The notes under the pieces: model-generated
Database searches by the model: none
The model's input: the letters and a program-made list of their open reading frames with translations, nothing else
Told to the model about the DNA's origin: nothing
Part shown: one piece after another, positions 3,531 to 23,912 of the stretch
Layout of the letters: every line of letters starts with the position of its first letter
How positions within the stretch are numbered: position 1 is the stretch's first letter
Translations under genes and position numbers: made by a program
Source of the DNA: Rhodoferax sp.
GTDB lineage: Bacteria; Pseudomonadota; Gammaproteobacteria; Burkholderiales; Burkholderiaceae_C
Direction of reading: 5' to 3'
DNA length: 64,000 bases
NCBI RefSeq assembly: GCF_023700745.1
Contig: NZ_JAMPYG010000003.1
Coordinates: forward strand, 62,001-126,000

Positions 3531-3546
3531 GTAATCGCGTGGTCAT
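3531..3546 (+). promoter_or_regulatory. Candidate CopR box of copK1
   Basis: GTAAT-cgcgtg-GTCAT, a direct repeat of GTnAT spaced 11 bp, ending 112 bp upstream of the copK1 start. The same arrangement precedes the other copper operons in this window. OmpR-family regulators such as CopR and CusR commonly bind direct repeats of this spacing. Assignment to CopR is inferred. Confidence 0.6.
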
Positions 3547-3581
3547 GTGAGTGACGCCTTATGGTTTCTACATTAACACCA

Positions 3582-3602
3582 GTGACGCAGCAGTTGTGTC
3601 AC
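3582..3602 (+). promoter_or_regulatory. Conserved dyad in the copK1 promoter
   Basis: GTGACGCA-gcagt-TGTGTCAC, a dyad with seven of eight matching pairs, ends 56 bp before copK1. It lies within the block starting ACATTAACACCA that is conserved in all three copK promoters. It could be a second regulator site or part of the core promoter. Confidence 0.5.
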
Positions 3603-3657: not shown

Positions 3658-3939
3658 ATGTCCATTCGCCAATCCCTGATCGCTTTGAGTCTCGTTGCCA
3701 CCGCGCTGTCCGCAGTCGCCGCCGGAGACGCCGACAAAGTGCAATCCATCCAGTTGAAAGACGGCACCACCGTGCACCAATACAAAGACGGCAAGATGGC
3801 CATGGAAGGCAAATACGGCAATGCCGTCTATATGCAAGAAGGCGTGAAAATGGAAACCACTGACGGCAAAACCATCACCATGTCGGGCAACGAGGTTGCG
3901 CGCTTGTTCCTGGAAAAGTACCAAGCCAACAGGCCCTGA
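3658..3939 (+). CDS. copK: CopK-family periplasmic copper-binding protein (copy 1)
   Basis: 93 residues with a cleavable signal peptide (about 1-21, ending AVAA). The mature protein carries the CopK core: LKDGTTVHQYKDGKMAMEGK, then VYMQEG, KMETTDG and ITMSGNEVARL. The spaced methionines (KM, AM, YM, KM, TM) correspond to the thioether ligands known from Cupriavidus metallidurans CopK, which binds Cu(I) with Met side chains and Cu(II) at a second site. It probably buffers periplasmic copper. Differences from copy 2 cluster in the metal loop. A strong ribosome site, AAGGAG, precedes ATG 3658. Confidence 0.9.
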   Translation: MSIRQSLIALSLVATALSAVAAGDADKVQSIQLKDGTTVHQYKDGKMAMEGKYGNAVYMQEGVKMETTDGKTITMSGNEVARLFLEKYQANRP

Positions 3940-3989: not shown

Positions 3990-4020
3990 GACAGCGTCAA
4001 TCGCCCAAACTGACGCTGTC
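3990..4020. promoter_or_regulatory. Strong hairpin downstream of copK1
   Basis: GACAGCGTCA (3990-3999) and TGACGCTGTC (4011-4020) form a perfect 10-bp stem with an 11-base loop. Outer arms AATCACA (3971-3977) and TGTGATT (4024-4030) can extend it. No T-tract follows. It sits just past the copK duplication boundary and just before the next gene, so it may be a transcription attenuator, an mRNA end or a rearrangement scar. Confidence 0.4.
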
Positions 4021-4069: not shown

Positions 4070-4315
4070 ATGAAAATCTCTTCACTTATCGCTGCCGTAC
4101 TATTTGCTGGTGCCGCACTGAGCGGTGCCACTTATGCTGACGACAAGATGGCAGCCCCGAAGGCTGCCGAAGCGCAGGCTGACAAGGCCAAGTCGCACTT
4201 CCATGTGCAGGAGAAAACCGGTGTGCCGCAAAGCATGCCGGCGGAGGCGAAGACGGACAAGCCGAATGCAGCCAAGGATAAGAGCAAGCATTTCCATCCG
4301 AGAGATGGGAAATAA
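4070..4315 (+). CDS. Small periplasmic His-motif protein of the copper island
   Basis: 81 residues with a signal peptide (about 1-23, ending TYA). The mature part is Lys/Ala-rich and very hydrophilic. It carries two HFH motifs (residues 43-45, SHFHVQEK, and 74-76, KHFHPRDG), each preceded by a Lys-Ser context. This looks like a duplicated metal-binding element on a disordered chain, comparable in style, but not visibly in sequence, to SilE/PcoE-type periplasmic copper or silver sponges. No known family was recognised. Location and motif suggest copper or silver buffering. Confidence 0.65.
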   Translation: MKISSLIAAVLFAGAALSGATYADDKMAAPKAAEAQADKAKSHFHVQEKTGVPQSMPAEAKTDKPNAAKDKSKHFHPRDGK

Positions 4316-4958: not shown

Positions 4959-6250
4959 ATCACTTTGCACTGCCTGATACTCCTTGCCGGTTACGTCTTG
5001 CTTTGGCCCTTCGGCTCGGTGTTGGTGCCGTGGTAATCGGGATATTGGCCGGTGGTATTGCCTACTGGGCGGCATCCTACGAAGCCGAGATACGCGTCAA
5101 GGAACTGGCGATTGCCGGCGTGCGTCACTTCGAGTCGCCAGCGATGCGATTGGCGGGGGAGCAGGACCTGGCCGATCATCAGGAACTTGTCCGGATCCTG
5201 CGTGACGAACTGGCAGGTATGCGGGTTTTTGGGGCTGACAGGCGCCTGCTTTTCGAGACCTGGAGCGCGCTCCCCGAGGCTGCACTCGCCTCGCTCCGGA
5301 GCGTCGTGCCTCTCTGGCCCAAACAAGGGGAAAGCCACACGCAGAGTTTTCTAATCGGATCAGACGAGTTGATTCAGGTCTTGCTACCCATGACCATCGA
5401 AAATGGCCGCCTGATTGGTTATATTGAAGGAATTAGCCGAATATCGGAAAAGGAGATCGAGGCGAGACGACGATCAATACGGCATGTGGCACTGGCAGCA
5501 AGTTTGTCGGTGCCGGTAGCGGCATTATTGTTGTACCCGCTTATGCTGGCCATGCTGCGGCGTTCCAATTTCCTGTCGCGGCAGCTGCTTGATGCCAACT
5601 TGTCGCTGATTCGTTCGCTGGGGAATGCAATTGCCAAGCGTGATGCCGACACCGACGCGCACAATTATCGGGTCACCCTGTTTTCGGTGGCTGTTGCTGA
5701 GGCCTTGAACGTTCCGACGGAGACGATTTCCAACTTGGTGTTGGGCGCTTTTTTACATGATGTCGGCAAGATTGGGATTCCCGATCGAATCCTGCGCAAA
5801 CCGGGTAAATTGGATCAGGATGAGTTCAAGGTCATGCAGACCCACGCTGTGCTTGGTGTGGAGATCGTTGCCGGCAATCCTTGGCTGATCGGTGCCGAAC
5901 AAACGATCCGCCACCACCATGAGCATTTTGATGGCAGCGGCTACCCGGATGGACTATCCGGGACAAATATTCCGTTGACAGCCAGAATTTTTGCACTGGC
6001 CGACGTATTCGATGCGCTGACTTCGGTACGCCCTTACAAAAAAGCAATCTCACTGGAAGAAACACTGCTCATCATGGAGCGTGAAAGCGGTACTCATTTC
6101 GACCCAGCAATATTTGCAACATTCTTTGAGCTTGCGCCTGGCCTATATGCAATGAGCCGTACTTGGGAAAGCGATCAGTGGGCGGCCGAATTGAACTCAG
6201 TCGTCAAACGGTACTTCAAAACGGAAACGGCTCCCGAAGGAGCCGCCTGA
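4955..6250 (+). CDS. Membrane-anchored HD-GYP phosphodiesterase
   Basis: Taken from ATG 4955 this is 431 residues: a membrane segment (about 14-40), a periplasmic sensor region (about 41-175), a second membrane segment (about 177-201) and a cytoplasmic HD-GYP domain (about 215-400). Catalytic features are intact: HDVGKIGIPDR (HD at about 268-269), HHHEHFDGSGYPDG (GYP at about 329-331) and ALADVFDALTS. HD-GYP enzymes hydrolyse cyclic di-GMP. An in-frame upstream extension to 4604 is low-complexity and was not used. The sensor-region sequence recurs at 14794-15065. Its position suggests a c-di-GMP output linked to copper or silver stress, which is inferred. Confidence 0.85.
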   Translation: MNHFALPDTPCRLRLALALRLGVGAVVIGILAGGIAYWAASYEAEIRVKELAIAGVRHFESPAMRLAGEQDLADHQELVRILRDELAGMRVFGADRRLLFETWSALPEAALASLRSVVPLWPKQGESHTQSFLIGSDELIQVLLPMTIENGRLIGYIEGISRISEKEIEARRRSIRHVALAASLSVPVAALLLYPLMLAMLRRSNFLSRQLLDANLSLIRSLGNAIAKRDADTDAHNYRVTLFSVAVAEALNVPTETISNLVLGAFLHDVGKIGIPDRILRKPGKLDQDEFKVMQTHAVLGVEIVAGNPWLIGAEQTIRHHHEHFDGSGYPDGLSGTNIPLTARIFALADVFDALTSVRPYKKAISLEETLLIMERESGTHFDPAIFATFFELAPGLYAMSRTWESDQWAAELNSVVKRYFKTETAPEGAA

Positions 6251-6268: not shown

Positions 6269-6524
6269 TCAACCGCGATGGCCTTGATGCAGAAGGTTAT
6301 CGAGGCGCATCACTTCATCACCATGCATGATGATCTTCTGACCGTCCTTGGTTTCCATCACAGTGTCTTTTTCCATCCTTGAAGATGTAAACCGTCGAGT
6401 CATCCTTCAATTCGATGACCTGCTGACGGCGGTTGTCAAGGTAGTTGTCGCGTAAAGGTGATGGAGCAAATTTTTTGAGGTGTTCAAGGTCCTTGGTCCT
6501 TGGTTTGTCGGGATTGAGTTCCAC
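6269..6524 (-). pseudogene. Deleted and frameshifted copK-like gene
   Basis: On the minus strand one frame reads VIELKDDSTVYIFKDGK, the first half of a CopK core. The adjacent frame continues DTVMETKDGQKIIMHGDE and VMRLDNLLHQGHRG, stopping at 6269. This second half is closer to C. metallidurans CopK (which ends in an LDEALRKGH-type tail) than the intact copies here. About 15 residues between the KDGK and VMET motifs are missing, and the frame changes at that point. The upstream in-frame part, from about 6640 (KNDRCKFQQREEA...), has no start codon or signal peptide. Confidence 0.75.
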
Positions 6525-6629
6525 GCGCTCGACATGGCGCCAATCGCGGGTCAGTCTGGACCAGCGGCGCGCCGTTTCCGCCTGGTAAATGGCTTCTTCG
6601 CGCTGCTGGAATTTGCACCTGTCATTCTT

Positions 6630-6645
6630 GTAATCGCGTGGTCAT
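6630..6645 (+). promoter_or_regulatory. Candidate CopR box of copK2
   Basis: GTAAT-cgcgtg-GTCAT, ending 112 bp before the copK2 start, the same spacing as in copK1. Confidence 0.6.
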
Positions 6646-6680
6646 GTGAGTGACGCCTTGTGGTTTTTACATTAACACCA

Positions 6681-6701
6681 GTGACGCAGCATTTGTGTCA
6701 C
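6681..6701 (+). promoter_or_regulatory. Conserved dyad in the copK2 promoter
   Basis: GTGACGCA-gcatt-TGTGTCAC, 56 bp before the copK2 start. It is equivalent to 3582-3602 in copK1 and 19333-19353 in copK3. Confidence 0.5.
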
Positions 6702-6756: not shown

Positions 6757-7044
6757 ATGTCTATTCGCAAATCGCTGATCGCCTTGGGTCTTGTTGCCAC
6801 CGCGCTGTCCGCAGTCGCCGCTGGAGCCGGAGACGCCGACAGAGTGCAATCCATCCAGTTGAAGGACGGCACCACCATGCACCACTACAAAGACGGCAAG
6901 ATGGCCATGGAAGACAAAAACGGCAAGATTGTCTACATGAAAGAGGGTGTGAAAATGGAAACCACTGACGGCAAAACCATCACCATGACGGGCAACGAGG
7001 TCGCGCGCTTGTACATGGAAAAGTACCAAGCCAACAGGCCCTGA
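6757..7044 (+). CDS. copK: CopK-family periplasmic copper-binding protein (copy 2)
   Basis: 95 residues with a signal peptide (about 1-21). The CopK core follows (LKDGTTMHHYKDGKMAMEDK, VYMKEG, KMETTDG, ITMTGNEVARLYMEK). It has two more potential ligands than copy 1: Met-His-His in place of Val-His-Gln, and an extra Met near the C-terminus. Two additional residues (AG) follow the signal peptide. It lies tail to tail with copS, only 17 bp from its stop codon, and no terminator is visible between them. Confidence 0.9.
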   Translation: MSIRKSLIALGLVATALSAVAAGAGDADRVQSIQLKDGTTMHHYKDGKMAMEDKNGKIVYMKEGVKMETTDGKTITMTGNEVARLYMEKYQANRP

Positions 7045-7061: not shown

Positions 7062-8471
7062 CTACGTCAGCATGGGGGTAGCGGGCAGTTTGATGGTGAA
7101 TGTTGTGACCGCACCAGCAGAAGTTGCCGCGATGGTGCCCCCATGCCCCAGGATGATGGACTTGGCAATGGCCAGGCCCAAGCCCGTGCCGTCACCGTGT
7201 TGGCGTGCCGGGTCAACCCGGAAGAAGCGGTCAAAAATGCGCTCCAGAAATTCGGGCGCAATGGTGTCGCCCACATTTTCCACCATCACCGTTAGCGCGT
7301 CGGAGGCCTGGCCCAACGTCACCCGGACACAGCTGTCCGGGTTGGCGTGGCGTATGGCATTGGACAGCAGGTTGCCCAGCGCCCGGCGCAGCATCAGACG
7401 ATCGGCCAGCACCGACACAGCGCCCGTGGCGCTCAGACTGAGCTGCAAATTTTTCTCGTCGGCCACGGCTTCGTAATAATCAAACAAGGCACGCACTTCC
7501 TTGGCCAGGTCAACGGTCTCCCGGCTCGGCACCACCAGACCATTCTCGGCCTTGGCCAGCAGCAACATGTCAGAAATCATGCGCGCCATGCGATCCAGTT
7601 CTTCCGCATTTGATTCGAGCACACTGCAGTATTCGGCGACATCACGCGGGCGCGACAAGACCACCTGGGTTTGCGTCATCAGATTGCTCACCGGGGTGCG
7701 CAGCTCGTGCGCGATGTCGCTTGAAAAATCAGACAGGCGCGTGAAGGCTTCATCGAGTCGCGCCAGCATGTCATTGAGCGACTGCGCCAACTCAGCCAAC
7801 TCCACCGGCATATGCTGCACTGGCAGACGATGACTGAGTTGCTGCGCCGTCACCACCTGGGCCTGCTCGCGCATCGTGCGCAAGGGCATCAGCCCCCGGC
7901 GCACCGCAGCCCAGCCCAGCACACCAGTCACCGCGACGGCCGCTGCCACAAACAACCACAGTGTTTTAAGGAACGCGCTCAAGTAAGCCGTGTGCTGCGC
8001 AATGTCAGTTGCCACCGCAACGTACACATTGACCGCAAGGCCGTTGCGGTCCAGCATGGCCGTCGGAATTTGCGCCGCCAACCCACGGTACGTCTGGCTG
8101 CCCTGCTCCCATAAGTCGGGCCGACCATGTGCCAGCCTGGCCAGGGAGACCACCACTTCGGGACTGAAGTTGGCGTTGCCAGTCGCAAAAACAACCGAAT
8201 GATCCGCATCAATCACCATCACTTCCAGCCCTGGATGACCCACCAATGACTGTGCCAATTGGTGCGTGAACTGCGTTAAGCCCTCGTGTGAAGTCACGGT
8301 ATGGAGGGCCTGCCGGGTCAACTCCATCTTGCCGGAGAGCACCTCCATGTCAAGGTCTTCAAAGTGTTGCTCAACCGAGGCGGCGATGACAAAACCAAGC
8401 ACCAGCAGCACCGACGATGCCGCTGAGACAAACATCAGCGTCAAGCGCTGCGTCAAGGAGATCCGGTTCAT
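7062..8471 (-). CDS. copS: Heavy-metal sensor histidine kinase
   Basis: 469 residues from ATG 8471, whose start overlaps the copR stop as ATGA (translational coupling). An N-terminal membrane segment is followed by a periplasmic sensor (about residues 35-165), a second membrane segment, a HAMP domain, the H-box [15 protein letters not shown] and the ATPase boxes ([36 protein letters not shown]). This is the CusS/CopS subfamily that senses periplasmic Cu(I)/Ag(I). An upstream in-frame TTG at 8480 is less likely as the start. Confidence 0.93.
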
Positions 8472-9154
8472 GTTGCGCAAGTGGGATCCTCCAGCACGTA
8501 GCCCATGCCGCGCACAGTCCGAATCAGTTTGGGCTCGAACATGTCGTCTACCTTGGCGCGCAGCCGGCGCATGGCGACTTCAATAACGTTGGTGTCGGAA
8601 TCAAAGTTCATGTCCCACACCTGCGAGGCAATCAGTGAACGCGGCAGCACCTCGCCCTGGCGCCGCAGCAGCAGCTCCAGCAGGGCAAATTCCTTGGCGG
8701 TCAGGTCGATGCGCTGGCCGGCGCGGCTGACACGCCGGCGCAGCAAGTCCAGCTCCAGATTGGCCGCGCGCAAAAAGGGGTCGGTCGGCGCTTTGCCACC
8801 CCGGCGCAACAGCGTGCGCACGCGTGCCAGCAGCTCGGAAAAGGCAAAGGGTTTGAGCAAATAGTCATCGGCACCCAGTTCCAGTCCCTTGACGCGGTCG
8901 TCCACCGCATCGCGGGCGGTCAAAAACATGACGGGTAGGTCTTTGCCGGAGCGGCGAATGCCGGCCAGCACCCCCCAGCCATCGATGCCGGGCAGCATCA
9001 CATCCAGAATGGCCAGATCGTAGTTTTCAGTCAAGGCAAAATGGAGTCCGTCGACACCATCACGGGCCAGATCGACCATGAACCCGGCCTCGGTCAGACC
9101 TTGTTTCAGGTAGTCACCGGTTTTGAGTTCGTCCTCGACGATGAGGATTTTCAT
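8468..9154 (-). CDS. copR: Copper response regulator, OmpR family
   Basis: 228 residues: a receiver (1-120) with D51 in [16 protein letters not shown] in FLTAR and K in [13 protein letters not shown]. An OmpR/PhoB winged helix follows (about 130-222, [22 protein letters not shown], then RLRAKVDD and [12 protein letters not shown]). It belongs to the CusR/CopR heavy-metal branch. It is the probable reader of the GTAAT-N6-GTCAT boxes in this window, by inference. No such box lies directly upstream of copR itself, which may be transcribed with the ATPase operon. Confidence 0.94.
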
Positions 9155-13084: not shown

Positions 13085-13148
13085 TTTTGAATCCTAGCTA
13101 ATTGCTGTGAAGGTGTATGAAGTGTCGAGCCAGGTCGTCGTCCATGAC

Positions 13149-13164
13149 ATGACGGCCACATTAC
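13149..13164 (-). promoter_or_regulatory. Candidate CopR box of the DUF411/ATPase operon
   Basis: Read on the minus strand: GTAAT-gtggcc-GTCAT, 65 bp upstream of the DUF411 start. A further TGACA lies on its upstream side. The surrounding 65 bp (13117-13185) resemble 15067-15130, where a similar box is now orphaned. Confidence 0.6.
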
Positions 13165-13269
13165 TTTCTTGTCATTTGGTGCGAGAACGTGGACGCGGCC
13201 AGGCTTTGCGGTTCGCCACATGGGGCATTCCCAAGGGGCGCCAGGTGCCATATGTCGCGTTGACATGGT

Positions 13270-13485
13270 GGGGTGCATGTCGGGATGCAGTTCATTGCAC
13301 ATCACATCTTGCTTTCCGACCGGATAGGTGCCAGATCGGATGGCCTCGGCCAGTTCTGACGCAACCTGCGCGCGCGTCTTGGCGGCGCGGACTCCTGTTG
13401 CAGGGAATTGCGCAGGATAGAGATCGCGCATGTTGCGTCCCTGATCGCCCACAACAGGCGTCGTGCCTGTACGAGTGTCCAAAAA
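13270..13485 (-). pseudogene. DUF4148 protein remnant
   Basis: The minus-strand frame reads VVGDQGRNMRDLYPAQFP, then KTRAQVASELAEAIRSGTYP and NELHPDMHP. These are the tandem motifs of Burkholderiales DUF4148 periplasmic proteins (KTRAQVxAELxEAxRTG...NELYPxxYP). There is no start codon with a signal peptide: the upstream frame runs through the porin terminator and into the porin gene. The C-terminal side dissolves into the DUF411 promoter. It is a decayed fragment. Confidence 0.6.
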
Positions 13486-13517
13486 AAACCCTGCACCGGC
13501 GGACAGCCTGGCAGGGT
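13481..13517 (-). terminator. Rho-independent terminator of the porin gene
   Basis: On the minus strand ACCCTGC (13517-13511) and GCAGGGT (13494-13488) form the stem, followed by eight T. It lies about 35 bp beyond the porin stop at 13550 and inside the upstream part of the DUF4148 remnant. Confidence 0.8.
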
Positions 13518-13549
13518 CTAAAACGCTTAACCTTGGAGCCAGCGGAAAA

Positions 13550-14590
13550 TCAGAACAGGTGAACAACACCCGCAATAAGCCTGTTTGCCACATCGGTGCT
13601 GATCGCGCCAACGACACCCTTTTCGATCGATGTCCGGTCATAGGATGTGTACAGGTAAGTACGTTTGGACAGGTCGTAAGTGGCGAGCAAGTTGTACCCA
13701 CTGCCATTCAAATCGAAGCCTGCAGCGCTGGTGTTGGAATCAGCGTAGCCAAAATAGACTTTGACGGCAGAACCCACCGGCACAGTGACACCCAGGTTGT
13801 ATTCCTTGTCATCGCGACCGGTATCGTTGGACACTTTTTGGTAACCGGCATTGACCCTGGCCATACCAAAGTCATAGGTGCCGCCAATCATGTTGTATTT
13901 GTTTTTGTCTTGAGGTGCGCCAACCGTATTTTGAGCCAGTTTTTCCTCATGGTAGCCATAGCCCAGCAAAACTGGACCCGCTTTGTAGATCACATTCAAG
14001 CTGTAGGTGTTGGTTGCACTGCCGCCAAGGTTACCGGGTGCTTGATCATTTTCACCCAGCCCAGCTAAAGCCGAAACGGAGACCCCGCTGAACTCGGGCG
14101 AGGTATACCGAATTGAATTGCTGATATAGGTAATGCCTTGTTTGATACCAAGCCCATATACTTTTTCAGAGGGCGAAGTGTTGCCGTTGTTGATGCTTTC
14201 AACTACCCCAAACAAATCGTAATAAGGCGTGTATTGACGACCCAAAATCACGTTTCCGAAGCCGCCCGACAGGCCAACGGATGCCGTGCGTGCAAATAGG
14301 CCGGCTGTGGCACCTGCACCGCTGTCAAGGTCAAAGGCGGACATGAGGTTGAAATTGGCCTTCAACCCGCCGCCCAGGTCTTCCGTGCCCTTCAAGCCCC
14401 AGTAAGTGGTTCTGAAAGTCGAAGAGTTCACCACGGTTTTTGATTGGGATGCCACAGGTGCGGCGCCAGTCGTCTCAGTGGTGGTGCGACCAAAGCCAGC
14501 GTCAAGACGACCATACAAGGTCACCGACGATTGAGCCATGGCAGTGCCAGACGCGGCCAGGACGGCCAAAGTAAGGAGAGATTTTTTCAT
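13550..14590 (-). CDS. Trimeric porin, Omp32/OmpC-like betaproteobacterial family
   Basis: 346 residues from ATG 14590, which gives a proper signal peptide (MKKSLLTLAVLAASGTAMAQ). The mature start SSVTLYGRLDAGFG and the C-terminal ...VANRLIAGVVHLF (terminal Phe) are typical of beta-barrel porins. The FGRTTTE, GTEDLGGGLKANFNLMSAFDLDSG and VGLSGGFGNVILGRQYTPYYD segments match the Gram-neg_porin family. The promoter resembles those of copK, so copper-responsive expression is expected. That is unusual for a general porin, though a role in reduced permeability or copper passage is only inference. Confidence 0.92.
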   Translation of the reverse strand: MKKSLLTLAVLAASGTAMAQSSVTLYGRLDAGFGRTTTETTGAAPVASQSKTVVNSSTFRTTYWGLKGTEDLGGGLKANFNLMSAFDLDSGAGATAGLFARTASVGLSGGFGNVILGRQYTPYYDLFGVVESINNGNTSPSEKVYGLGIKQGITYISNSIRYTSPEFSGVSVSALAGLGENDQAPGNLGGSATNTYSLNVIYKAGPVLLGYGYHEEKLAQNTVGAPQDKNKYNMIGGTYDFGMARVNAGYQKVSNDTGRDDKEYNLGVTVPVGSAVKVYFGYADSNTSAAGFDLNGSGYNLLATYDLSKRTYLYTSYDRTSIEKGVVGAISTDVANRLIAGVVHLF

Positions 14591-14639
14591 TTCAATGTTT
14601 CTGTAGGTTATAGAGAAGGGGTTCATTCACCGAATTGAC

Positions 14640-14770
14640 TTCTAATCAGCTTGGAGATCGGTGACGCAACTGGCAACAGCGACATCACTGAGGACAATGT
14701 AGAAATCAAAGCTTGACAAACGCATGACCGGAAAATTACAAGAAAGTCTGCATTTCGACAGCTTTAACAG
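14640..14770 (-). promoter_or_regulatory. copK-type promoter module of the porin
   Basis: On the minus strand this stretch aligns with the copK3 promoter (19310-19425). Shared elements are the GTAAT-tttccg-GTCAT box (14724-14739), CTACATT, the half-dyad TTGCGTCAC and the flanking GATCTCCAAGCT-like end. A 7-bp insertion breaks the dyad (GTGATG...TTGCGTCAC). The box ends 134 bp before the porin start. Confidence 0.6.
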
Positions 14771-14793
14771 GCTGCTGAAATACCTTCCAGAAT

Positions 14794-15065
14794 GGGCTGA
14801 CAGACGCCTGCTTTTCGAGACCTGGAGCGCGCTCCCCGAGGCTGCACTCGCCTCGCTCCGGAGCGTCGTGCCTCTCTGGCCCAAACAAGGGGAAAGCCAC
14901 ACGCAGAGTTTTCGGATCGGATCAGACGAGTTGATTCAGGTCTTGCTACCCATGACCATCGAAAATGGCCGCCTGATTGGTTATGTTGAAGGGATTAGCC
15001 GAATATCGGAAAAGGAGATCGAGGCGAGACGACGATCAATACGGCATGTGGCACTGGCAGCAAGT
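14794..15065 (+). pseudogene. Duplicated fragment of the HD-GYP gene (sensor region only)
   Basis: 272 bp nearly identical to 5232-5503, with only a handful of substitutions seen by eye. It encodes the periplasmic sensor part of the HD-GYP protein (about residues 93-183), from ADRRLLFETW to RSIRHVALAAS. Both ends are abrupt. The left side joins the porin/copK-type promoter module and the right side joins an orphan copper promoter at 15066. No HD or GYP residues are present, so it cannot be an enzyme. Confidence 0.85.
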
Positions 15066-15095
15066 GAAGTGTGCGACCGGGGTGTCGACTGCGAC

Positions 15096-15111
15096 ATGAT
15101 CGCTACATTAC
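15096..15111 (-). promoter_or_regulatory. Orphan CopR-like box
   Basis: Read leftward: GTAAT-gtagcg-ATCAT, within a 65-bp stretch similar to the DUF411 promoter. In that promoter the gene begins 65 bp downstream, but here that position is occupied by the HD-GYP fragment. It is probably the promoter of a gene lost in a rearrangement. Confidence 0.4.
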
Positions 15112-15268
15112 TTTTTGTCACTTGATTTCGACCGAACCAATGGACTCGATCTTTTCATAGCGCCGTCGCGGTGAGGACAGGTGTGGCTCGCGCTACTTTG
15201 AAACGTTCGACGGCTACGTTTACAGATCAATTTCGGCGTTTGCCGCACTTTTAAAAGATGACAGTTTT

Positions 15269-15284
15269 GTAATTTACGAGACAT
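15269..15284 (+). promoter_or_regulatory. Candidate CopR box of the TolC / multicopper oxidase operon
   Basis: GTAAT-ttacga-GACAT, ending 66 bp before the GTG start at 15350 and preceded by ATGACAGTTTT. It matches the spacing of the DUF411 operon box (65 bp). Confidence 0.55.
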
Positions 15285-15349
15285 CCGGCTGATACCGATA
15301 CACCGGCACAATAAAACTTGTTTGATCTAAATCAAAAGGAAGTTAAATA

Positions 15350-16456
15350 GTGCCTCTCAAACTTAAACCAAAACCCGTGTGGCCGGTCATTTTATTTGGC
15401 CTCGTGTCGATCCCATTGGCATGGTCTGCCCAAACCATCCCGCCCGGCGCAGAGGAAGACTGGCGAAAGGCAAACGAGGCAGTTGGACAGCTCAAACGAG
15501 GTCATGCGGACGCGCTCAAATGGGAGCAGGCAAACGTGTCGCCCCCAGTAATCCAAAGCCAGGTGCCAGTCGGACTGAAACTGCTGACGATTGAAGATGT
15601 GACTCGTCAGGCTTGGCGGGCTCACCGCGATATGGTTCATCCGTTGTCCCGCCTCGGCACGGCCAATGTGACATTGATGGCAACAGGTCGCTGGACGGAA
15701 ATTGATCCCCGTCTGCAGCGCCGGGTGGATGGCATGGACGAGATGCTGGAAGTGGCCGCGCAAGCGCGCAAAGCATGGTTGCAAGCGGTTGCCTCACGCC
15801 AGGCGCTGACGCAGTACCGCGCAGCTTTGGACGCGGCCGAAGCTGCGAGCGAGTTGGGTCGGCGTATGGTGAACGTGGGCAATTGGAGCAAACTGAAGCA
15901 AACCCAGGTGCAACTGGTGCAATCAGCTGCCCAAATGAACTTGTTGCGCGCGCAGTACGCGGCAGACCAGGCGCAGGCCAGCTTAATCAAGACTCTTGGT
16001 TTAAGAGGTCAATATACCCACGTGACGCTACCCGATGCGCTGCCCGATGTACCCCGACAGCTTGTCCCCATCGGGGAATGGCAGCAACAAGCATTGGCCA
16101 TACAGGCCCAACTGCCAGATGTTGAAAGTATGCGCTATCAAGCCAATTTCGACCTGGCGCTGGCGGCTTATCAAACCAGCCACGCGCTGGTCAAGGGCAC
16201 GCGGGATGAGGTGCTCAAGGTGCGCGAATTCATCAGCGAAGAAACGGTCCTGCACTACAACGGGATGCTCAGCAGTGTTTGGGATCTGCTGGATGAGTCT
16301 CGCAATCAGTCACAGGCCGTGATTGATGCCATAGCTTCCCAGCGTGACTTCTGGATCGCCGAGACCGACTTGCAATGGGTGCTGCAAGGTGGCGAACCCG
16401 ACAGTTTTGTATCTCTGGGCGGTGGCAGTGAAGCTGCCGCGGCGGCTGCGCACTAA
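15350..16456 (+). CDS. TolC-family outer-membrane channel-like protein
   Basis: 368 residues from a GTG start (ribosome site AAGGAAG upstream). A signal-anchor-like N-terminus (PVWPVILFGLVSIPLAWSAQ) is followed by long amphipathic helices: about 110-220 (AARKAWLQAVASRQALTQYRAALDAAEAA) and 255-345. This is the helical half-barrel of outer-membrane factors. It is shorter than CusC and has a weak second beta part. It opens an operon with multicopper oxidase, cupredoxin and CusF-like genes but no RND pump, so it may serve as a periplasmic partner rather than a full channel. Confidence 0.75.
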   Translation: MPLKLKPKPVWPVILFGLVSIPLAWSAQTIPPGAEEDWRKANEAVGQLKRGHADALKWEQANVSPPVIQSQVPVGLKLLTIEDVTRQAWRAHRDMVHPLSRLGTANVTLMATGRWTEIDPRLQRRVDGMDEMLEVAAQARKAWLQAVASRQALTQYRAALDAAEAASELGRRMVNVGNWSKLKQTQVQLVQSAAQMNLLRAQYAADQAQASLIKTLGLRGQYTHVTLPDALPDVPRQLVPIGEWQQQALAIQAQLPDVESMRYQANFDLALAAYQTSHALVKGTRDEVLKVREFISEETVLHYNGMLSSVWDLLDESRNQSQAVIDAIASQRDFWIAETDLQWVLQGGEPDSFVSLGGGSEAAAAAAH

Positions 16457-16465
16457 CAGGAACGC

Positions 16466-17860
16466 ATGAACATGAATCTCAACTCACGCAGACAATTTTT
16501 TGCCGGAGCTGCCGCCTCAGTGGCTGGCCTGGTCGTGGCGCGCTCGGCGCTGGCCGGCCTGCCCGAGGCGGTCATCCAGACCTCGGTGGCAACGGCACCG
16601 CCGCTGGTCCCGACCACGGGCCGACTCTATAACCCGGTCGTCACGCTCAACGGCTGGACCTTGCCCTGGCGCATGAACAACGGCGTCAAGGAATTCCACC
16701 TGGTGGCCGAACCGGTGGTGCGCGAAGTGTCACCGGGCTTCAAGGTCAACATGTGGGGCTACAACGGGCAAAGCCCGGGACCCACGATCGAGGTCGTTGA
16801 AGGCGATCGCGTTCGCATCTTCGTCACCAACAAGCTGCCCGAGCACACCACCATTCATTGGCATGGCCAGCGCCTGCCCAACGGCATGGACGGTGTTGGC
16901 GGCCTGAACCAACCCGCCATTCCTGTGGGCAAGACCTTTGTCTATGAGTTCGAGGCGCGCCGCCCAGGCACCTTCATGTACCACCCGCATGCCGACGAAA
17001 TGGTGCAAATGGCCATGGGCATGATGGGCATGTGGGTGACCCACCCCAAGGCCAGGCACCCCCACATCAGCGAGGTGGACCGGGATTTCTGCTTTTTGCT
17101 CAACGCGTTTGACGTGGAACCTGGCAGCAAAACGCCCAAGATCAACACCATGACCGACTTCAACATCTGGTGCTGGAACAGCCGCGTTTTCCCGGCCATC
17201 GACACCCTGAATGTGCGGCTGAACGACCGTGTGCGCATCCGGGTCGGCAACCTCACCATGACCAACCACCCGATCCACCTGCACGGGCACGAGTTTCTGG
17301 TCACCGGCACCGACGGTGGCCCGACACCGCCCAACACCCGCTGGTATGAGGTCACGACCGACGTGGCGGTGGGGCAGATGCGGCAAATTGAACTGGTTGC
17401 CGACGAAGAGGGTGACTGGGCCATGCATTGCCACAAGAGCCACCACACCATGAACGCCATGGGCCATGATGTACCGACCATGATCGGCGTGGATCACCGC
17501 GGCCTGGTCGGGAAAATCCAGAAGGTCGCGCCCGACTACATGCTGATGGGCGAACGCGGCATGGCCGACATGGGCGACATGCAGATGCCCATCCCTGACA
17601 ACACGGCGCCCATGATGACCGGCACTGGCCAATTTGGCCCACTGGAAATGGGCGGCATGTTCACCGTGTTCAAGGTGCGCAAAGACCAGAAACCGGGGGA
17701 TTACAGCGACCCCGGACCCTACAAGTTTCCAGCCGGCACCGTGGCTTATGAATGGCATGGCGCCCTACCCCAGACCACGCGTCCAACGGGCAGCACCGGG
17801 ACTGCGCCTGTCGCAGCAAGCGCCATCAAGCCCAGTGGCAAAGGAGGCATGTCACACTGA
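16466..17860 (+). CDS. Periplasmic multicopper oxidase (CopA/CueO-like)
   Basis: 464 residues with a Tat-type leader (SRRQFFAGAAASVAGLVVARSALA). All four copper-ligand motifs are visible: HWHGQRLP, HPHADEM, HPIHLHGHEF and HCHKSHHTMNAMGH. The last has His rather than the usual pattern after the Cys and gives an unusually His/Met-rich T1/T2-T3 region. The C-terminal part is Met-rich (MADMGDMQMP, MGGMFTV). It should oxidise Cu(I) to less toxic Cu(II). Ten bp separate it from the preceding TolC-like gene. Confidence 0.93.
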   Translation: MNMNLNSRRQFFAGAAASVAGLVVARSALAGLPEAVIQTSVATAPPLVPTTGRLYNPVVTLNGWTLPWRMNNGVKEFHLVAEPVVREVSPGFKVNMWGYNGQSPGPTIEVVEGDRVRIFVTNKLPEHTTIHWHGQRLPNGMDGVGGLNQPAIPVGKTFVYEFEARRPGTFMYHPHADEMVQMAMGMMGMWVTHPKARHPHISEVDRDFCFLLNAFDVEPGSKTPKINTMTDFNIWCWNSRVFPAIDTLNVRLNDRVRIRVGNLTMTNHPIHLHGHEFLVTGTDGGPTPPNTRWYEVTTDVAVGQMRQIELVADEEGDWAMHCHKSHHTMNAMGHDVPTMIGVDHRGLVGKIQKVAPDYMLMGERGMADMGDMQMPIPDNTAPMMTGTGQFGPLEMGGMFTVFKVRKDQKPGDYSDPGPYKFPAGTVAYEWHGALPQTTRPTGSTGTAPVAASAIKPSGKGGMSH

Positions 17861-17933
17861 CTGAAAAACACTGTTGTAGCCTTCTTGAACCCCATCCCGT
17901 TAGCGTGATCCACGCTTCAATCGAAAAGTAAAC

Positions 17934-18425
17934 ATGAAATTTTCAAAACTCATTCCGTCCAATTCTCCAGCACTGATTTTTATCGCATTGCTTACCGCAG
18001 CTTCTGCCGCATCGGCCGCAGGCGTTCATGGTGGAGGACATGGTGGCTCGCCCATTGGCAAGCCCGGCGTTGCTGCCAAGGTCAGTCGCACGATCAACGT
18101 GGAGATGGCCAACGGCATGCGCTTCAAGCCCTCTGACATTCAGGTCAAAAAGGGGGAAACGATCCGCTTTGTCCTGAAAAACACCGATGGCGTCAAACAT
18201 GAATTCAGCCTGGGGACACAACAGGAATTGCTGGAACACTATGAAGCCATGAAGAAGTTCCCCGACATGGAGCACGACGAGCCCAACAAGATCAGTCTGG
18301 CGCCGGGCAAGCGGGGAGAAGTGATCTGGCAATTCACAAAAGCAACCGCTGTCGACTTTGCCTGCCTGCACCCAGGTCACTTCGAGGCCGGTATGAAGGG
18401 CCGGGTCATCGTGGCCGCCAAGTAG
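17934..18425 (+). CDS. Cupredoxin-domain periplasmic protein
   Basis: 163 residues with a signal peptide (cleavage near ASAAG), a GVHGGGHGG His/Gly linker and a plastocyanin-like domain. Type 1 copper ligands are apparent: H in TDGVKHEFSL, then the C and H in FACLHPGHFEAGMKG, with the terminal Met. It probably carries copper or electrons for the adjacent multicopper oxidase. Confidence 0.88.
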   Translation: MKFSKLIPSNSPALIFIALLTAASAASAAGVHGGGHGGSPIGKPGVAAKVSRTINVEMANGMRFKPSDIQVKKGETIRFVLKNTDGVKHEFSLGTQQELLEHYEAMKKFPDMEHDEPNKISLAPGKRGEVIWQFTKATAVDFACLHPGHFEAGMKGRVIVAAK

Positions 18426-18476
18426 GTTCGGCCCGCTACAGATTCCGTGGCTATCACTTTTTTCAAGGCATACATC

Positions 18477-18821
18477 ATGAAACAACAAGCCAAACGCTTG
18501 CTGGCGGCAACAGCCATCACCCTGTCGTCTCTCTTTTCAGGGTCAGTGCTCGCGCAAACGCCCCCAAATCAAAACACCATGGAGATGCCTGCCAAGCCCA
18601 GCTTGACGGACGGCGAAGTTCGGAAAATCGACAAGGAAACGGGCAAACTCACCATCCGGCATGGCGAGATCAAGCACCTGGAAATGCCGCCAATGACCAT
18701 GGTTTTTGTGGCCAGGGACAAAGCCATGCTCGACCAGGTCAAGGTTGGCGACAAGGTACGCTTCATGGTCGTTCACGAGAATGGCCAGATGGTCGTCACA
18801 GACATCCAACCCATCAAGTAA
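18477..18821 (+). CDS. CusF-like periplasmic copper chaperone (first copy)
   Basis: 114 residues from ATG 18477 with a signal peptide (ending SVLAQ). An OB-fold CusF domain follows: GEVRKIDKETGKLTIRHGEI, then LEMPPMTMVFVARD and VGDKVRFMV. The ligands H, M and M with the nearby aromatic or Phe position match the CusF MxM pattern. It is the last gene of the oxidase operon, and a strong hairpin at 18923 follows. Confidence 0.9.
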   Translation: MKQQAKRLLAATAITLSSLFSGSVLAQTPPNQNTMEMPAKPSLTDGEVRKIDKETGKLTIRHGEIKHLEMPPMTMVFVARDKAMLDQVKVGDKVRFMVVHENGQMVVTDIQPIK

Positions 18822-18922
18822 TCGCTCGCCGGTTTTGACATGCGCCCGTGCTGCTTGCACTGGGCGCAAGAGCGTACACACTACCTCAACACGCCTCTTT
18901 GCAAGCCAACCGCAAATACAAA

Positions 18923-18955
18923 CGCGGTGGCTGTGCTTGCACCACAGCCACCGCG
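18923..18955. terminator. Strong hairpin between convergent cusF-like and copK3 genes
   Basis: CGCGGTGGCTGTG (18923-18935) and CACAGCCACCGCG (18943-18955) form a perfect 13-bp stem with a 7-base loop. There is no T-run on either side, so termination would be atypical or Rho-assisted. The convergent position supports a bidirectional transcript end. Confidence 0.5.
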
Positions 18956-18998
18956 TCAGCGGATTAATTAAACAATCAAACCTATACCGATGCGCTCC

Positions 18999-19280
18999 TT
19001 ATGGGCGGTTGTCTAAATAGATGTATCCAGACAGCCTGGCAACCTCGTTTCCCTTCATTGTGATCGATTCACCACTTGCTGTTTCCATGACTGTACCTTC
19101 TTGCATGACCACGGCTATACCAAACTTGCTTTCCATCGCCATCTTGCCATCCTTGAACTGATAGACGGTGGAGCCGTCCTTGAGTTGGGTGGATTTCACG
19201 ATATCTGTGTTGTCCAATGCAAATGCAGACAGGGCAGGAAAAACAAGACTCAGAACCAAAATGGATTTACGAATTGACAT
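18999..19280 (-). CDS. copK: CopK-family periplasmic copper-binding protein (copy 3, diverged)
   Basis: 93 residues with a signal peptide (about 1-20, ending SAFA). The core is KDGSTVYQFKDGKMAMESK, then VVMQEG, VMETASG and ITMKGNEVARL. It keeps the Met ligands but differs from copies 1 and 2 at many other residues. Its promoter is conserved with theirs, although the gene points the other way. It stands alone between two copper operons. Confidence 0.9.
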   Translation of the reverse strand: MSIRKSILVLSLVFPALSAFALDNTDIVKSTQLKDGSTVYQFKDGKMAMESKFGIAVVMQEGTVMETASGESITMKGNEVARLSGYIYLDNRP

Positions 19281-19332
19281 GATAAAACTCCTTAGGATGA
19301 CTGCAGTTTTCCCCGAATAAGCTCGGGGTCTG

Positions 19333-19353
19333 GTGACGCAACTGCTGCATCAC
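19333..19353 (-). promoter_or_regulatory. Conserved dyad in the copK3 promoter
   Basis: In sense orientation GTGATGCA-gcagt-TGCGTCAC, 53 bp before copK3. It is the counterpart of the dyads in copK1 and copK2. Confidence 0.5.
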
Positions 19354-19388
19354 TGGTGTTAATGTAGTAACTCAATCCCCGCAAGGAA

Positions 19389-19404
19389 ATGACAGTTCAA
19401 TTAC
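19389..19404 (-). promoter_or_regulatory. Candidate CopR box of copK3
   Basis: Read on the minus strand: GTAAT-tgaact-GTCAT, 109 bp upstream of the copK3 start. Confidence 0.6.
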
Positions 19405-19526
19405 AAAAGTGACAGCATTAGACGGCTTTTGAACCAGCACATGTTTCGCTCAAAAGCTGCCAGAAAAAACTCAAACCGGGCAATTTCGAGGTGGTTTAAA
19501 CGCCAAATCGTTTAGATAACAAAAAA

Positions 19527-19542
19527 GTAATCTGAACGTCAG
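19527..19542 (+). promoter_or_regulatory. Candidate CopR box of the CusF-Dsb-CusCBA operon
   Basis: GTAAT-ctgaac-GTCAG, 70 bp upstream of the GTG start at 19612. It has one mismatch to the consensus, at the last base. Confidence 0.5.
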
Positions 19543-19611
19543 CTGGCAGTGATGCCCCTTCGGCATACTGGCGCCATTCGTTTTTATCTACTTTTCGCTA
19601 AAGGAACTCCC

Positions 19612-21081: not shown

Positions 21082-22353
21082 ATGAAATACGCTTTGCAAA
21101 CCACAGCGCTGGCCACGCTGTTGATTTTGGCTGCGCCTGTGCGCGCTTTGGCTGATGACGCCTTGCCCGGCGCCAGTGTCGAGAGTCTGCTGTCACTGGC
21201 CAAGGAACACAACCCCGACTACGCCAGCATGCGCTTCGAAGCGCAGGCGGCCACCGAGCGGATCGCGCCGGCGGGAGCGCTGATGGACCCCAAATTCCGC
21301 ATTGAGTGGATGGACATCACCAAGGCTGGCTCGCAAAGCGCCACCCTGTGGCCCAGCGAGGTGGGCAGCACCCAATACACGCTGATGCAAGACCTGCCCT
21401 GGTTTGGCAAACGTGACCTGAAGAAAAACATCGCTGCCCAGGAAGCACAGGCCAGCCAGGGCAAGGCGCAGGGGACCTGGGCTGAACTGGCAGCCAAAGT
21501 CAAAATCACGCATGCGCAACGCTACTACCTTTACCACACGCAAAAGCTCACGCTGGAATTGCTCGACCTGAGCACACAGCTGGCCAAGGTGGCGCAAGTA
21601 CGTTATGCCGGCGGCCTGGCGATGCAGCAGGACGCCATTCGCGCGCAGCTGGAGCAGACCACCATGCAGACCGAGCTGGTGGCGTTGCAAGGCGAGTCGC
21701 GCCAGGCCGATGCCAGACTCAACGCCATACTGGCAAGGCCAGGCAACGCAGCGCTGGCGGTGCCCGAGCGCCTGCGCCCCGTGCCAGTGGCCGCCAGGCT
21801 TGACGCGGACGCACTGATGGCGCGTGTACAACAAGGCAACCCCCAGTTATTTGCCGAAGATTCCCGCATCAAGTCAGCCGAACTGGGGCGTGAGCTGAGC
21901 CTGAAGAACCGCTACCCGGACTTCACGCTGTCGATCACGCCGACCCAAATGCAGAGCCGCATCAGCGAATGGAGCCTGATGCTGGAGGTCAATATCCCGC
22001 TACAACAGGCGTCACGCCGCGCTGAAGAACGCGAGGCACAGGCCATGCTGTCGGCAGCCCAATCGCGCCGCGCCGCCACCGCCAATCAGGTGGCATCCGA
22101 CCTGGCTGAAAACCTGGCCGGGCTCGACGCGGCGCAACGCACCGAACAACTCGCCACCAGCAGCCAGCTGCCGCAAGCCGAGCTGACGTTCCAGGCGGCG
22201 CTCGCGGGTTATGAAAACGGCAAGCTCGACTTTGCCACCTTGCTCGACGCCCAGCGCCAGGTGCGCCAGGCCAGGCAAGCCCAGCTCAAGGCGCAACTGG
22301 AAGCACAAATGAGACTGGCTGAAATTGAGAAATTAATTGGGGAAGAGTTATGA
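21082..22353 (+). CDS. cusC: CusC-like outer-membrane factor (TolC family)
   Basis: 423 residues with a signal peptide (ending RALADD). The two repeated helical-hairpin units are visible: residues about 60-230 (ERIAPAGALMDPKFRIEWMD, QDLPWFGKRDLKK) and 250-420 (LGRELSLKNRYPDFTLSITP, YENGKLDFATLLDAQRQVRQ). It forms the outer-membrane exit of the CusCBA pump. Its stop overlaps the cusB ATG by four bases. Confidence 0.93.
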   Translation: MKYALQTTALATLLILAAPVRALADDALPGASVESLLSLAKEHNPDYASMRFEAQAATERIAPAGALMDPKFRIEWMDITKAGSQSATLWPSEVGSTQYTLMQDLPWFGKRDLKKNIAAQEAQASQGKAQGTWAELAAKVKITHAQRYYLYHTQKLTLELLDLSTQLAKVAQVRYAGGLAMQQDAIRAQLEQTTMQTELVALQGESRQADARLNAILARPGNAALAVPERLRPVPVAARLDADALMARVQQGNPQLFAEDSRIKSAELGRELSLKNRYPDFTLSITPTQMQSRISEWSLMLEVNIPLQQASRRAEEREAQAMLSAAQSRRAATANQVASDLAENLAGLDAAQRTEQLATSSQLPQAELTFQAALAGYENGKLDFATLLDAQRQVRQARQAQLKAQLEAQMRLAEIEKLIGEEL

Positions 22354-23912
22354 AATCAGGTACCGGATGGATGATTGGCGCGCTGCTTGCCGCGCTGGCT
22401 GGCGCAGGCGGATATTACGCGGGCACACGTGGCCATGCCGGCAGTAGCGCGGACGCGGCGGGTGCGCCAACGGCGGCACCCGCCAGCGCAGGCGATACAA
22501 CGGCCAAGCCCGAGAAAAAGCTCCTTTACTACCGCAACCCGATGGGCTTGCCCGATACCTCGCCCACCCCCAAGAAAGATCCGATGGGCATGGACTACAT
22601 CGCGGTTTATGCCGGTGGCGCGGATGAAGAAGAAGCCCCTGCCAACCAAGTGAAGATCAGTACCGAAAAGGTGCAGAAACTCGGGGTTCGTACCGAGGCG
22701 GCGCAACTGCGCACGCTCGACAAGCTGGTGCGCGCCTCGGGCCGCATTGAGCCCGACGAGCGCCGCCTGTACACCATCGCACCCAAGTTTGAAGGTTATG
22801 TGGAGCGCCTGCATGTCAACGTCACGGGCCAGGCCGTGGGCAGGGGCCAGGCGCTGTTTGAAGTCTACAGCCCGGAACTGGTCTCGGCCCAGCGTGAATA
22901 CGCCATTGCGGCGCAGGGCGTGAACAGCCTCAAGGACGCCGGCAGCCAGGCGCAGTTGGGTATGCAGCAACTCGCCGGCGCCAGTTTGGCGCGGCTGCGC
23001 AACTGGGACATTTCCGAGGCGCAAATCAAGGCGCTGACCGATTCGGGCGCCACCACCCGCACACTCACCTTCCGTTCACCCGTGAGCGGCATCGTGATGG
23101 ACAAGAAAGCGCTGCAAGGCATGCGCTTCATGCCCGGCGAGATGCTGTACCAGATCGCCGATTTATCCAGTGTGTGGGTCATTGCCGATGTCTTTGAGCA
23201 AGACATCGGGCTGGTCAAAAACGGCACTAAAGCCACGGTCCGCATCAACGCCTATCCGGACAAAACTTTCAGCGGTCGGGTGACTTATGTTTACCCCACC
23301 CTCAGCGCCGAAACCCGTACCGTGCCGGTGCGCGTCGAGCTAGCCAACCCCGGCGGACTGCTCAAACCCGGCATGTTTGCCCAGGTGGAGCTGCCGGTAG
23401 CGGCCAAGGGTCAGGTGGTCACCGTCCCGGTGTCTGCGGTGATTGACAGTGGCACCCGCCAGATTGTCCTGGTCGAACAAGGCGCTGGCCGATATGCGTC
23501 GCGTGAAGTCAAGTTGGGCGCACGCAGCGACACCCATGTGGAAGTGCTCGACGGCGTGGCCGAAGGCGAACCGGTGGTGGTGGCCGCCAACTTTTTGATC
23601 GACGCCGAAAGCAATCTGAAAGCGGCACTGGGCGGCCTGGGCAGCGCAGCACCGGCCATGACTCCGGCGGCATCGGCAGCCAAGATTGTGGGCCACCAGG
23701 CCAGCGGCACGGTGGAGGGCGTTGATCTGAAAGACGGCACCGTCAGCTTGAATCACGGCCCGGTGGCCAGCCTCAAATGGCCGGCCATGACGATGGAATT
23801 CAAAGCCGCCAACGCAACGTTGTTGCAATCGCTTAAACCCGGTTCAAAAGTCACCGTCGAGTTCATCGAGCGCCAGCCCGGTGAATGGGTCATCACCAAC
23901 GTCAAGCCCTGA
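22350..23912 (+). CDS. cusB: CusB-like adaptor with N-terminal HMBD and C-terminal CusF domain
   Basis: 520 residues. An N-terminal signal anchor is followed by an HMBD (YYRNPMGLPDTSPTPKKDPMGMDY, PMG and PMGMDY ligands), the lipoyl/barrel-sandwich and helical hairpin (VKISTEKVQKLGVRTEAA, then LFEVYSPELVSAQREYA) and membrane-proximal domains. Residues about 455-520 form a CusF-like OB fold (VEGVDLKDGTVSLNHGPV, LKWPAMTMEF). It therefore carries its own chaperone domain in addition to the free CusF. Confidence 0.93.
   Translation: MKSGTGWMIGALLAALAGAGGYYAGTRGHAGSSADAAGAPTAAPASAGDTTAKPEKKLLYYRNPMGLPDTSPTPKKDPMGMDYIAVYAGGADEEEAPANQVKISTEKVQKLGVRTEAAQLRTLDKLVRASGRIEPDERRLYTIAPKFEGYVERLHVNVTGQAVGRGQALFEVYSPELVSAQREYAIAAQGVNSLKDAGSQAQLGMQQLAGASLARLRNWDISEAQIKALTDSGATTRTLTFRSPVSGIVMDKKALQGMRFMPGEMLYQIADLSSVWVIADVFEQDIGLVKNGTKATVRINAYPDKTFSGRVTYVYPTLSAETRTVPVRVELANPGGLLKPGMFAQVELPVAAKGQVVTVPVSAVIDSGTRQIVLVEQGAGRYASREVKLGARSDTHVEVLDGVAEGEPVVVAANFLIDAESNLKAALGGLGSAAPAMTPAASAAKIVGHQASGTVEGVDLKDGTVSLNHGPVASLKWPAMTMEFKAANATLLQSLKPGSKVTVEFIERQPGEWVITNVKP

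Follow-up and report, generated by a model that had tools for sequence, protein, structure and literature searches.

How are the transcription units of one copper gene cluster controlled in common, and do their promoters differ in anything apart from the box that they share? The question is raised by a stretch of 64,000 nucleotides (nt) from Rhodoferax sp. (assembly GCF_023700745.1, contig NZ_JAMPYG010000003.1, positions 62,001 to 126,000), referred to here as the window, which comes from a genome of 3.21 Mb in 35 contigs that is 94.6% complete. An initial annotation of the window had proposed that a box, GTAAT-N6-GTCAT, stands in front of seven copper transcription units and is read by one OmpR-type regulator, most simply CopR, which is encoded in the same cluster. 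Our results suggest that the boxes are parts of operators for a CopR-type regulator, that the regulon is local, that its promoters are of two kinds and that transcripts of one kind, those with a long leader, would carry a stem-loop near the 5' end. We put the probability of this overall model at about 85%.

Boxes in the copper cluster

The seven boxes are present where they had been placed, at 3531 and 6630 (+), 13149 and 14724 (-), 15269 (+), 19389 (-) and 19527 (+), five of them exact and two with one mismatch. A pattern search of the window with up to one mismatch gave 14 matches against 1.61 expected, a number reached in none of 100 shuffles, and five of the eight exact matches in the whole genome lie inside the cluster (binomial p 1.8e-10). 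It might be argued that the box is a motif of chance or repeat origin. The copK1 and copK2 boxes represent a single, recent event, because both sit in a duplication that takes in the promoter (268 and 249 nt at 90 to 92%), and the ten-letter motif is unspecific at one mismatch, since it then has 91 matches in the genome against 31 for the reversed pattern, with the excess mostly outside the cluster. This explanation is contradicted by the excess in the window, by the specificity of the spacing, by an independent profile and further copK loci of the family (see below) and by the counts for the 15-letter pattern TGACA-N5-GTAAT-N6-GTCAT: with up to two mismatches it occurs at 10 places in the genome, seven of which are the named sites, and with up to three at 37 places against 19 for its reversal. 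The exact left part, TGACA-N5-GTAAT, is found at two places in the genome, each at a cluster box. We consider an origin by chance or from repeats extremely improbable.

Structure of the operator

The motif as first described is a real box but comprises only the middle parts of a larger element that combines an inverted with a direct repeat. In 73 copK loci of relatives (67 from genomes and six plasmid regions, the latter from 17 matching plasmid records; 730 kb), GTAAT-N6-GTCAT occurs at 45 places, 42 of them distinct, and with any other spacer from 1 to 12 at only 0 to 2. TGACA-N5-GTAAT occurs at 30 places, against 0 to 1 for other spacers, and TGACA-N5-GTCAT at 28. A profile was built from the non-Rhodoferax sites at copK loci, which were aligned on a seed and collapsed from 36 to 25; the window and the Rhodoferax loci were left out. 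Outside the seed, this profile contains a TGAC half-site at -10 to -7 (T in 24, A in 22 and C in 19 of the 25 sites), a third repeat, GTCAG, at +22 (G22 in 23 and G26 in 21) and a -10 hexamer at +38 to +43 (A39 and T43 in 24 each), which stands 22 bp after GTCAT. In full, the predicted element reads TGACA-N5-GTAAT-N6-GTCAT-N6-GTCAG and then the -10 hexamer, with direct half-sites in steps of 11 bp and GTCAG often present.

When the window was scanned with this profile, eight sites were found with scores of 12.6 to 29.5, and everything else scored at most 5; 30 shuffled windows had a mean of 0.07 sites above 12. Seven of the eight are the named sites and the other, at 15096 (-), is absent from the initial annotation. 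Six further one-mismatch matches to the ten-letter motif in the window (1077, 8235, 28138, 32469, 38962 and 52972) scored no higher than 5 in the profile and were set aside as chance. GTCAT lies 11 bp from GTAAT in all seven named sites, with one mismatch in two, and a -10-like hexamer (TACATT, GACACT, CACACT or CACAAT) is equally spaced in seven of the eight. At 19527 the hexamer is one base nearer, hence the low full score of that site, 12.6 as against 25.4 for the operator alone; the site rests on its operator part. With transcript starts that are themselves predicted, the position of the box just upstream of the -10 hexamer would fit that of a type II activator.

Each predicted operator-promoter can be assigned a position. 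Those of copK1 (3521 to 3574, +; TGTCG-N5-GTAAT-N6-GTCAT, -10 TACATT at 3569 to 3574) and copK2 (6620 to 6673, +; a duplicate of the copK1 promoter) score 22.3 and 20.8, respectively, and that of copK3 (19361 to 19414, -; box 19389 to 19404) scores 24.2. The highest score, 29.5, belongs to the promoter of the DUF411, DUF2933, methyltransferase and P-type ATPase genes (13121 to 13174, -), whose box at 13149 to 13164 is part of an exact TGACA-N5-GTAAT-N6-GTCAT and whose leader, up to the start codon at 13084, is short. The promoter of the porin gene (14696 to 14749, -; box 14724 to 14739) scores 26.3. The genes for an outer membrane efflux protein (OEP; TolC-like), multicopper oxidase, cupredoxin and CusF are preceded by a site at 15259 to 15312 (+), with a short leader and a score of 29.1, and the CusF, DsbB, thioredoxin-like and CusCBA genes, again with a short leader, by the low-scoring site at 19517 to 19570 (+).

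The profile was also compared with copK genes elsewhere. A site scoring above 12 within 350 bp upstream was found at 46 of the 73 copK loci, many of which are training loci, and at all seven Rhodoferax copK loci, which were absent from training. In further genomes of the family it was found at 17 of 24 evaluable loci (13 after near-duplicates were collapsed); one of these sites is 91% like a training site, and two loci with no usable start and two from the genome itself were left out.

Several observations count against reading the boxes in this way. The window sites stray in the outer half, where TGACA is exact only at 13149 and 15269, has one mismatch at 6630, 19389 and 19527 and two at 3531 and 14724, and is shifted by one base at 15096, and their third repeat is weak. 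One of the 30 shuffled windows peaked at 14.9, which exceeds the score of site 19527 (12.6). No site above 12 was found within 350 bp upstream at 27 of the 73 copK loci, among them copK of Cupriavidus metallidurans, or at seven of the 24 further family loci. At some loci with no box the genes may lie downstream in their units or have misplaced starts.

CopR as the probable reader of the boxes

The likely reader is the CopR response regulator (8468 to 9154, -), which adjoins the CopS sensor kinase (7062 to 8480, -; TIGR01386, 492 bits). CopR is the sole protein of its own genome above the cut-off of TIGR01387 (346.9 bits, cut-off 279.2). With CopR-type regulators from five relatives it shares 63 to 72% identity, and one stretch of 16 residues, which we take to contain the recognition helix, is almost invariant among the six proteins. 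Since copRS come after the ATPase gene in the row of genes behind the 13149 box, it is possible that copR is autoregulated through read-through from that promoter.

Published operators are of like build. In C. metallidurans, AgrR recognizes the inverted repeat ATKACANNNNTGTMAT; activation is almost lost when this repeat carries substitutions, and is largely affected by a substitution in the in-phase direct repeat on the promoter-proximal side (PMC7380067). The element described here shares with the AgrR box the inverted TGACA/TGTMAT-like half-sites, the in-phase direct repeat and a probable type II position, and AgrR is likewise a heavy-metal regulator of the OmpR family, from the same order. 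Unlike the AgrR box, it has a weaker outer half-site, in relatives often a third repeat, and as its predicted reader the cluster's own CopR. In Pseudomonas aeruginosa the CopR site is CTGACAn5GTAAT (PMC11195947); the CopR/CusR consensus has been given as TGACA-N4-TGTCA, and regions protected by CopR in Pseudomonas putida hold several TGACA-like motifs (PMC12428095). The half-sites and spacing of these Pseudomonas sites equal the left and middle parts of our element, but the consensus strings lack the GTCAT one turn downstream. In C. metallidurans CH34, a 37-bp MEME motif stands some 50 bp ahead of most cop start sites, copK being one of the exceptions, and was proposed as a CopR1 site (PMC7563307). 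Our element likewise measures 37 bp when counted from TGACA through the third repeat, and the two may correspond; the operator part of our profile gave only five sites above 11 in the 40 kb around the CH34 cop genes. Judged by its sequence, the operator in the window is of the known CopR/CusR/AgrR kind with inverted and direct repeats. A shared CopR-type operator of the OmpR family for these units is thus well supported, as the initial annotation had supposed, by the independent profile, the specificity of the spacing, the single TIGR01387 protein and published operators of like build.

Could the boxes be read by another regulator of the OmpR family (CzcR-, IrlR- or AgrR-like), with CopR one reader among several? 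In Pseudomonas the targets of CopR, CusR, CzcR, IrlR and MmnR overlap, and the consensus sites of CopR, CusR and CzcR have GTAAT in common (PMC11195947). The Rhodoferax genome, by contrast, has no second regulator above the subfamily cut-off: its runner-up, 44% identical to CopR, reaches 188 bits against a cut-off of 279, with the proviso that a further regulator may be missing from an assembly of 94.6% completeness. We regard several readers as improbable.

Extent of the regulon

The initial annotation had spoken of a regulon of some breadth and had proposed a genome-wide search. Such a search did show that exact matches concentrate in the cluster (five of eight) and yielded no convincing additional members. 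Within the limits of the pattern searches, which covered the whole genome, and of a profile scan of 113 loci around matches (349 kb including overlaps, about a tenth of the genome), in which no site outside the cluster exceeded 10.7, the regulon looks local rather than broad and essentially coincides with the cluster. Three outside places match the 15-letter box with up to two mismatches (C1:287403, C5:60041 and C14:19037), and they were rejected on profile scores of -2.8, 7.0 and -5.7, respectively. The box at C1:287403, with two mismatches, precedes a gene that by eye resembles one for a universal stress protein; it is the only extra place for which the context was read. These results reveal a compact copper regulon and give a usable profile of CopR-type operators, with the outer half-site and the placement of the -10 hexamer, for Comamonadaceae, Rhodocyclaceae and their kin.

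The eighth promoter, at 15096 (-), seems to have lost its own gene. It spans 15068 to 15121 (box 15096 to 15111; score 17.5) and resembles the DUF411 promoter, to which it aligns with a score of 28, whereas the best of 200 shuffles scored 14. Two bp past its -10 hexamer begins a piece of an HD-GYP gene (14794 to 15065, +), a 272-nt copy, at 98%, of 5232 to 5503; the next gene downstream is that of the porin.

Leader lengths and a predicted stem-loop in the window

The operator itself is known in kind, and the less expected part of our results is a distinction between two classes of leader. The initial annotation had sorted the distances from box to start into two classes, and these are real, with three short and four long leaders; its range of 109 to 134 bp for the long class fails for the porin and as an upper bound. 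From the end of the box to the start codon, the short distances are 64, 65 and 69 bp and the long ones 97, 108, 111 and 111 bp. Counted from the first base of GTAAT, they are 80 (DUF411), 81 (TolC-like) and 85 bp (CusF, with the start taken as the GTG at 19612) as against 113 (porin), 124 (copK3), 127 (copK1) and 127 bp (copK2).

All four long leaders have a predicted stem-loop just past the -10 hexamer, with energies of -10.7 to -13.7 kcal/mol and z scores of -1.9 to -3.6. In the copK1 leader (3582 to 3602, +) it has an 8-bp stem and a 5-nt loop (-10.7 kcal/mol, z -1.9), in that of copK2 (6681 to 6701, +) it reaches -13.6 kcal/mol (z -3.6; 2 of 200 shuffles as stable), in that of the porin (14661 to 14688, -) -13.7 kcal/mol (z -3.3; 1 of 200) and in that of copK3 (19333 to 19353, -), GTGATGCA-gcagt-TGCGTCAC, -10.8 kcal/mol (z -3.0; 1 of 200). 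In copK1 and copK3 the stem opens with the eighth nucleotide past the -10 hexamer, which would put it near the predicted transcript start. The three short leaders and that of the orphan promoter have no such stem-loop (-0.9 to -4.9 kcal/mol; z -1.5 to +1.3). Rfam covariance models gave no match in the window at gathering level and none with E up to 1 between 3400 and 20000.

Leader structure across relatives

The relatives allow the leaders to be compared more widely. From 187 sites, 141 non-redundant leaders were obtained, 115 of them with an assigned gene; the profile that had chosen the sites did not include the leader. Genes were assigned by taking, within 220 bp, the first start that had a purine-rich site and opened a reading frame of at least 60 aa, a rule that misplaced some starts (in one copK locus, L140, at 59 instead of 122) and left the window porin unassigned, and copK2 was collapsed with copK1. 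The first fold test, in which copK sites were compared with all others against mononucleotide shuffles, gave a p value of only 0.04; the split by leader length was chosen after this test and was prompted by the distance classes of the initial annotation. The 69 long leaders had a mean z of -1.24, and 23 were at p <=0.05 against their own dinucleotide shuffles; the corresponding values were -0.07 and five for the 46 short leaders and -0.37 and three for the 26 with no gene. Long and short leaders differed at p 1.4e-5 (Mann-Whitney), a value that is optimistic, as are the others here, since sites related by descent were collapsed at 85% identity only. Length counts more than the name of the gene, because the difference persists when z is split by both: long copK leaders (21 sites) had a mean z of -1.67, with eight at p <=0.05, and short ones (15) -0.44 with three, as against -1.05 with 15 for the 48 long leaders of other genes and +0.10 with two for the 31 short ones. 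Long-leader genes in relatives encode CopK, CzcE-family and DUF4148-family proteins (one example each scanned) and small His-rich, secreted-looking peptides. In the further family genomes, 7 of 17 box-bearing copK leaders fold at p <=0.05.

It is possible that the long leader is a neutral spacer, its hairpin inherited with a duplicated promoter, and that short leaders are simply kept open for the ribosome-binding site. The copK promoters of the window are in part duplicates, and the 38 nt tested reach the ribosome-binding site in short leaders. Against this, long leaders are more structured than dinucleotide shuffles of themselves (the 23 of 69 above), and the structure is confined to the start of the leader: when the fold window was slid along 60 long leaders (distance <145), 43% were significant at offset 0, 22% at +10 and 0 to 17% elsewhere, compared with 9% at offset 0 for short leaders. 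The stems also differ in sequence (GTGATGCA/TGCGTCAC, GGTCGCTCA/TGAGCGACC and GCAAGTCC/GGGCTTGC). We therefore think a neutral spacer unlikely.

A second alternative is that the palindrome acts as DNA, as an operator for another regulator just downstream of the start, and not as an RNA hairpin. In leaders of the Comamonadaceae type the palindrome (GTGATGCA...TGCGTCAC) is fairly conserved in sequence, and a DNA palindrome would likewise show paired changes; RNAalifold, moreover, retains only five pairs of the stem, one of them with double changes. Other lineages, however, have stem-loops of unrelated sequence at the same place. Among 23 Comamonadaceae-type leaders, three of the eight pairs show double changes, G-U pairs occur at six of the eight, and the covariation score exceeds that of all 500 shuffles, only one of which matched the number of cells with double changes. 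Other measures of this alignment are weak: 87.5% of cells are paired against 85.8% in shuffles (14 of 500 reach this value), the number of pair types was reached in 111 of 500, and each of the two outermost pairs is absent in six rows and the innermost in seven. A DNA operator, too, appears unlikely to us, and a stem-loop in the RNA is preferred.

The exact 19-mer of the copK3 stem-loop occurs in 3 of 399 family genomes, its own included, and in both others a box stands 51 to 52 bp upstream, as at copK. With up to three mismatches it is found at four places in its own genome, three of them at copK; the fourth, on C22 with three mismatches, has no box by eye and was discarded.

A number of results speak against the stem-loop as a mark of long leaders. 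Only 23 of the 69 long leaders are significant individually, and the copK1 fold is the weakest of the four in the window (11 of 200 shuffles equally or more stable). The short TolC-like leader, weak in energy, is nearly as unusual for its composition (13 of 200), and some short copK leaders in Zoogloea (L126 and L129) do carry a stem-loop, in one such leader with the stem GTGCAGG/CCTGCAC. Strong hairpins within the first 60 nt are frequent in shuffles too (189 of 345, against 46 of 69 real leaders), and the best hairpin tends to begin close to where the leader does, with no sharply fixed position (25 of 46 strong hairpins at index 0 to 9, against 50 of 189 shuffled; p 0.0007).

In short-leader promoters of relatives, the operator itself is palindromic in structure (mean z -1.61 at offset -70), in line with the TGACA-N5-GTCAT sites, and the symmetry of the operator may be a further difference between the leader classes.

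A proposed model for the copper regulon

In the model that we propose, CopR, activated within the CopRS system of the same cluster, would bind the inverted repeat TGACA...GTAAT together with the adjoining direct half-sites 11 bp apart (GTAAT, GTCAT and often GTCAG). Lying about 22 bp ahead of the -10 hexamer, these half-sites would cover part of the -35 region or stand in its place and would bring in RNA polymerase by direct recruitment. In this way seven units would be driven, with that of copR itself perhaps reached by read-through, and the orphan would be the eighth promoter. Export and oxidase operons would have short-leader promoters, and the copK genes and the porin long-leader ones. Long-leader mRNAs would begin, at about +1, with a stem-loop that shields the 5' end from 5'-end-dependent decay, and the longer life of the mRNA would raise the yield of the small periplasmic copper-binding proteins. 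The box, its spacing, the placement of the -10 hexamer, the leader classes and the predicted stem-loop are what can be read from the DNA; the binding and phosphorylation of CopR, its mode of activation, the transcript starts and the stabilization of mRNA are what we infer.

Stem-loops at the 5' terminus that prolong the life of an mRNA are described for ompA and papA (titles in the reference list of PMC3997798), and those predicted here resemble them in standing at or near the predicted transcript start. By this analogy the leader stem-loop would most simply be an ompA-like stabilizer. A literature search, whose scope lay outside most subscription journals, found no description of a hairpin linked to a copper regulon in the material it covered. 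We suggest tentatively, at somewhat less than even odds, a general rule for CopR promoters of betaproteobacteria: export and oxidase operons would have short, plain leaders, and genes for CopK, CzcE, DUF4148 proteins, His-rich peptides and the porin a stem-loop fixed to the start, constant in place and pairing but not in sequence; the operator would in this way be coupled to a gain control at the level of RNA. The short copK leaders with a stem-loop and the weakness of individual folds tell against such a rule. If it is true, the stem-loop would help to explain how similar boxes give differing outputs under one activator, a question raised for C. metallidurans, where cop genes with similar motifs vary considerably in expression (PMC7563307). 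It would also mean that control at the RNA level sets the amount of the periplasmic binders and how long they are made after copper falls.

Genes of the cluster and minor observations

The three CopK-family genes and the porin gene were named by family profile searches. copK1 (3658 to 3939, +), for a periplasmic copper-binding protein, matches NF033793 with an E value of 2.2e-28, under the curated cut-off; copK2 lies at 6757 to 7044 (+), copK3 at 18999 to 19280 (-) and the porin gene (Porin_4) at 13550 to 14626 (-). A fragment of a fourth copK (6281 to 6379, -; E 2.9e-4), which lies immediately ahead of copK2 and on the other strand, resembles a decayed copy. Behind copK1, at 3990 to 4020, a 10-bp inverted repeat (GACAGCGTCA ... 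TGACGCTGTC), noted by eye, is terminator-like, with no T run. The adaptor of CusB type encoded at 22350 to 23909 (+) has a CusF domain at its C terminus. An 81-aa, secreted-looking protein with a His-rich tail, HFHPRDGK, is encoded at 4070 to 4315 (+) and had no match in an NCBIfam and Pfam search; in several relatives, similar genes stand directly behind a CopR box of their own.

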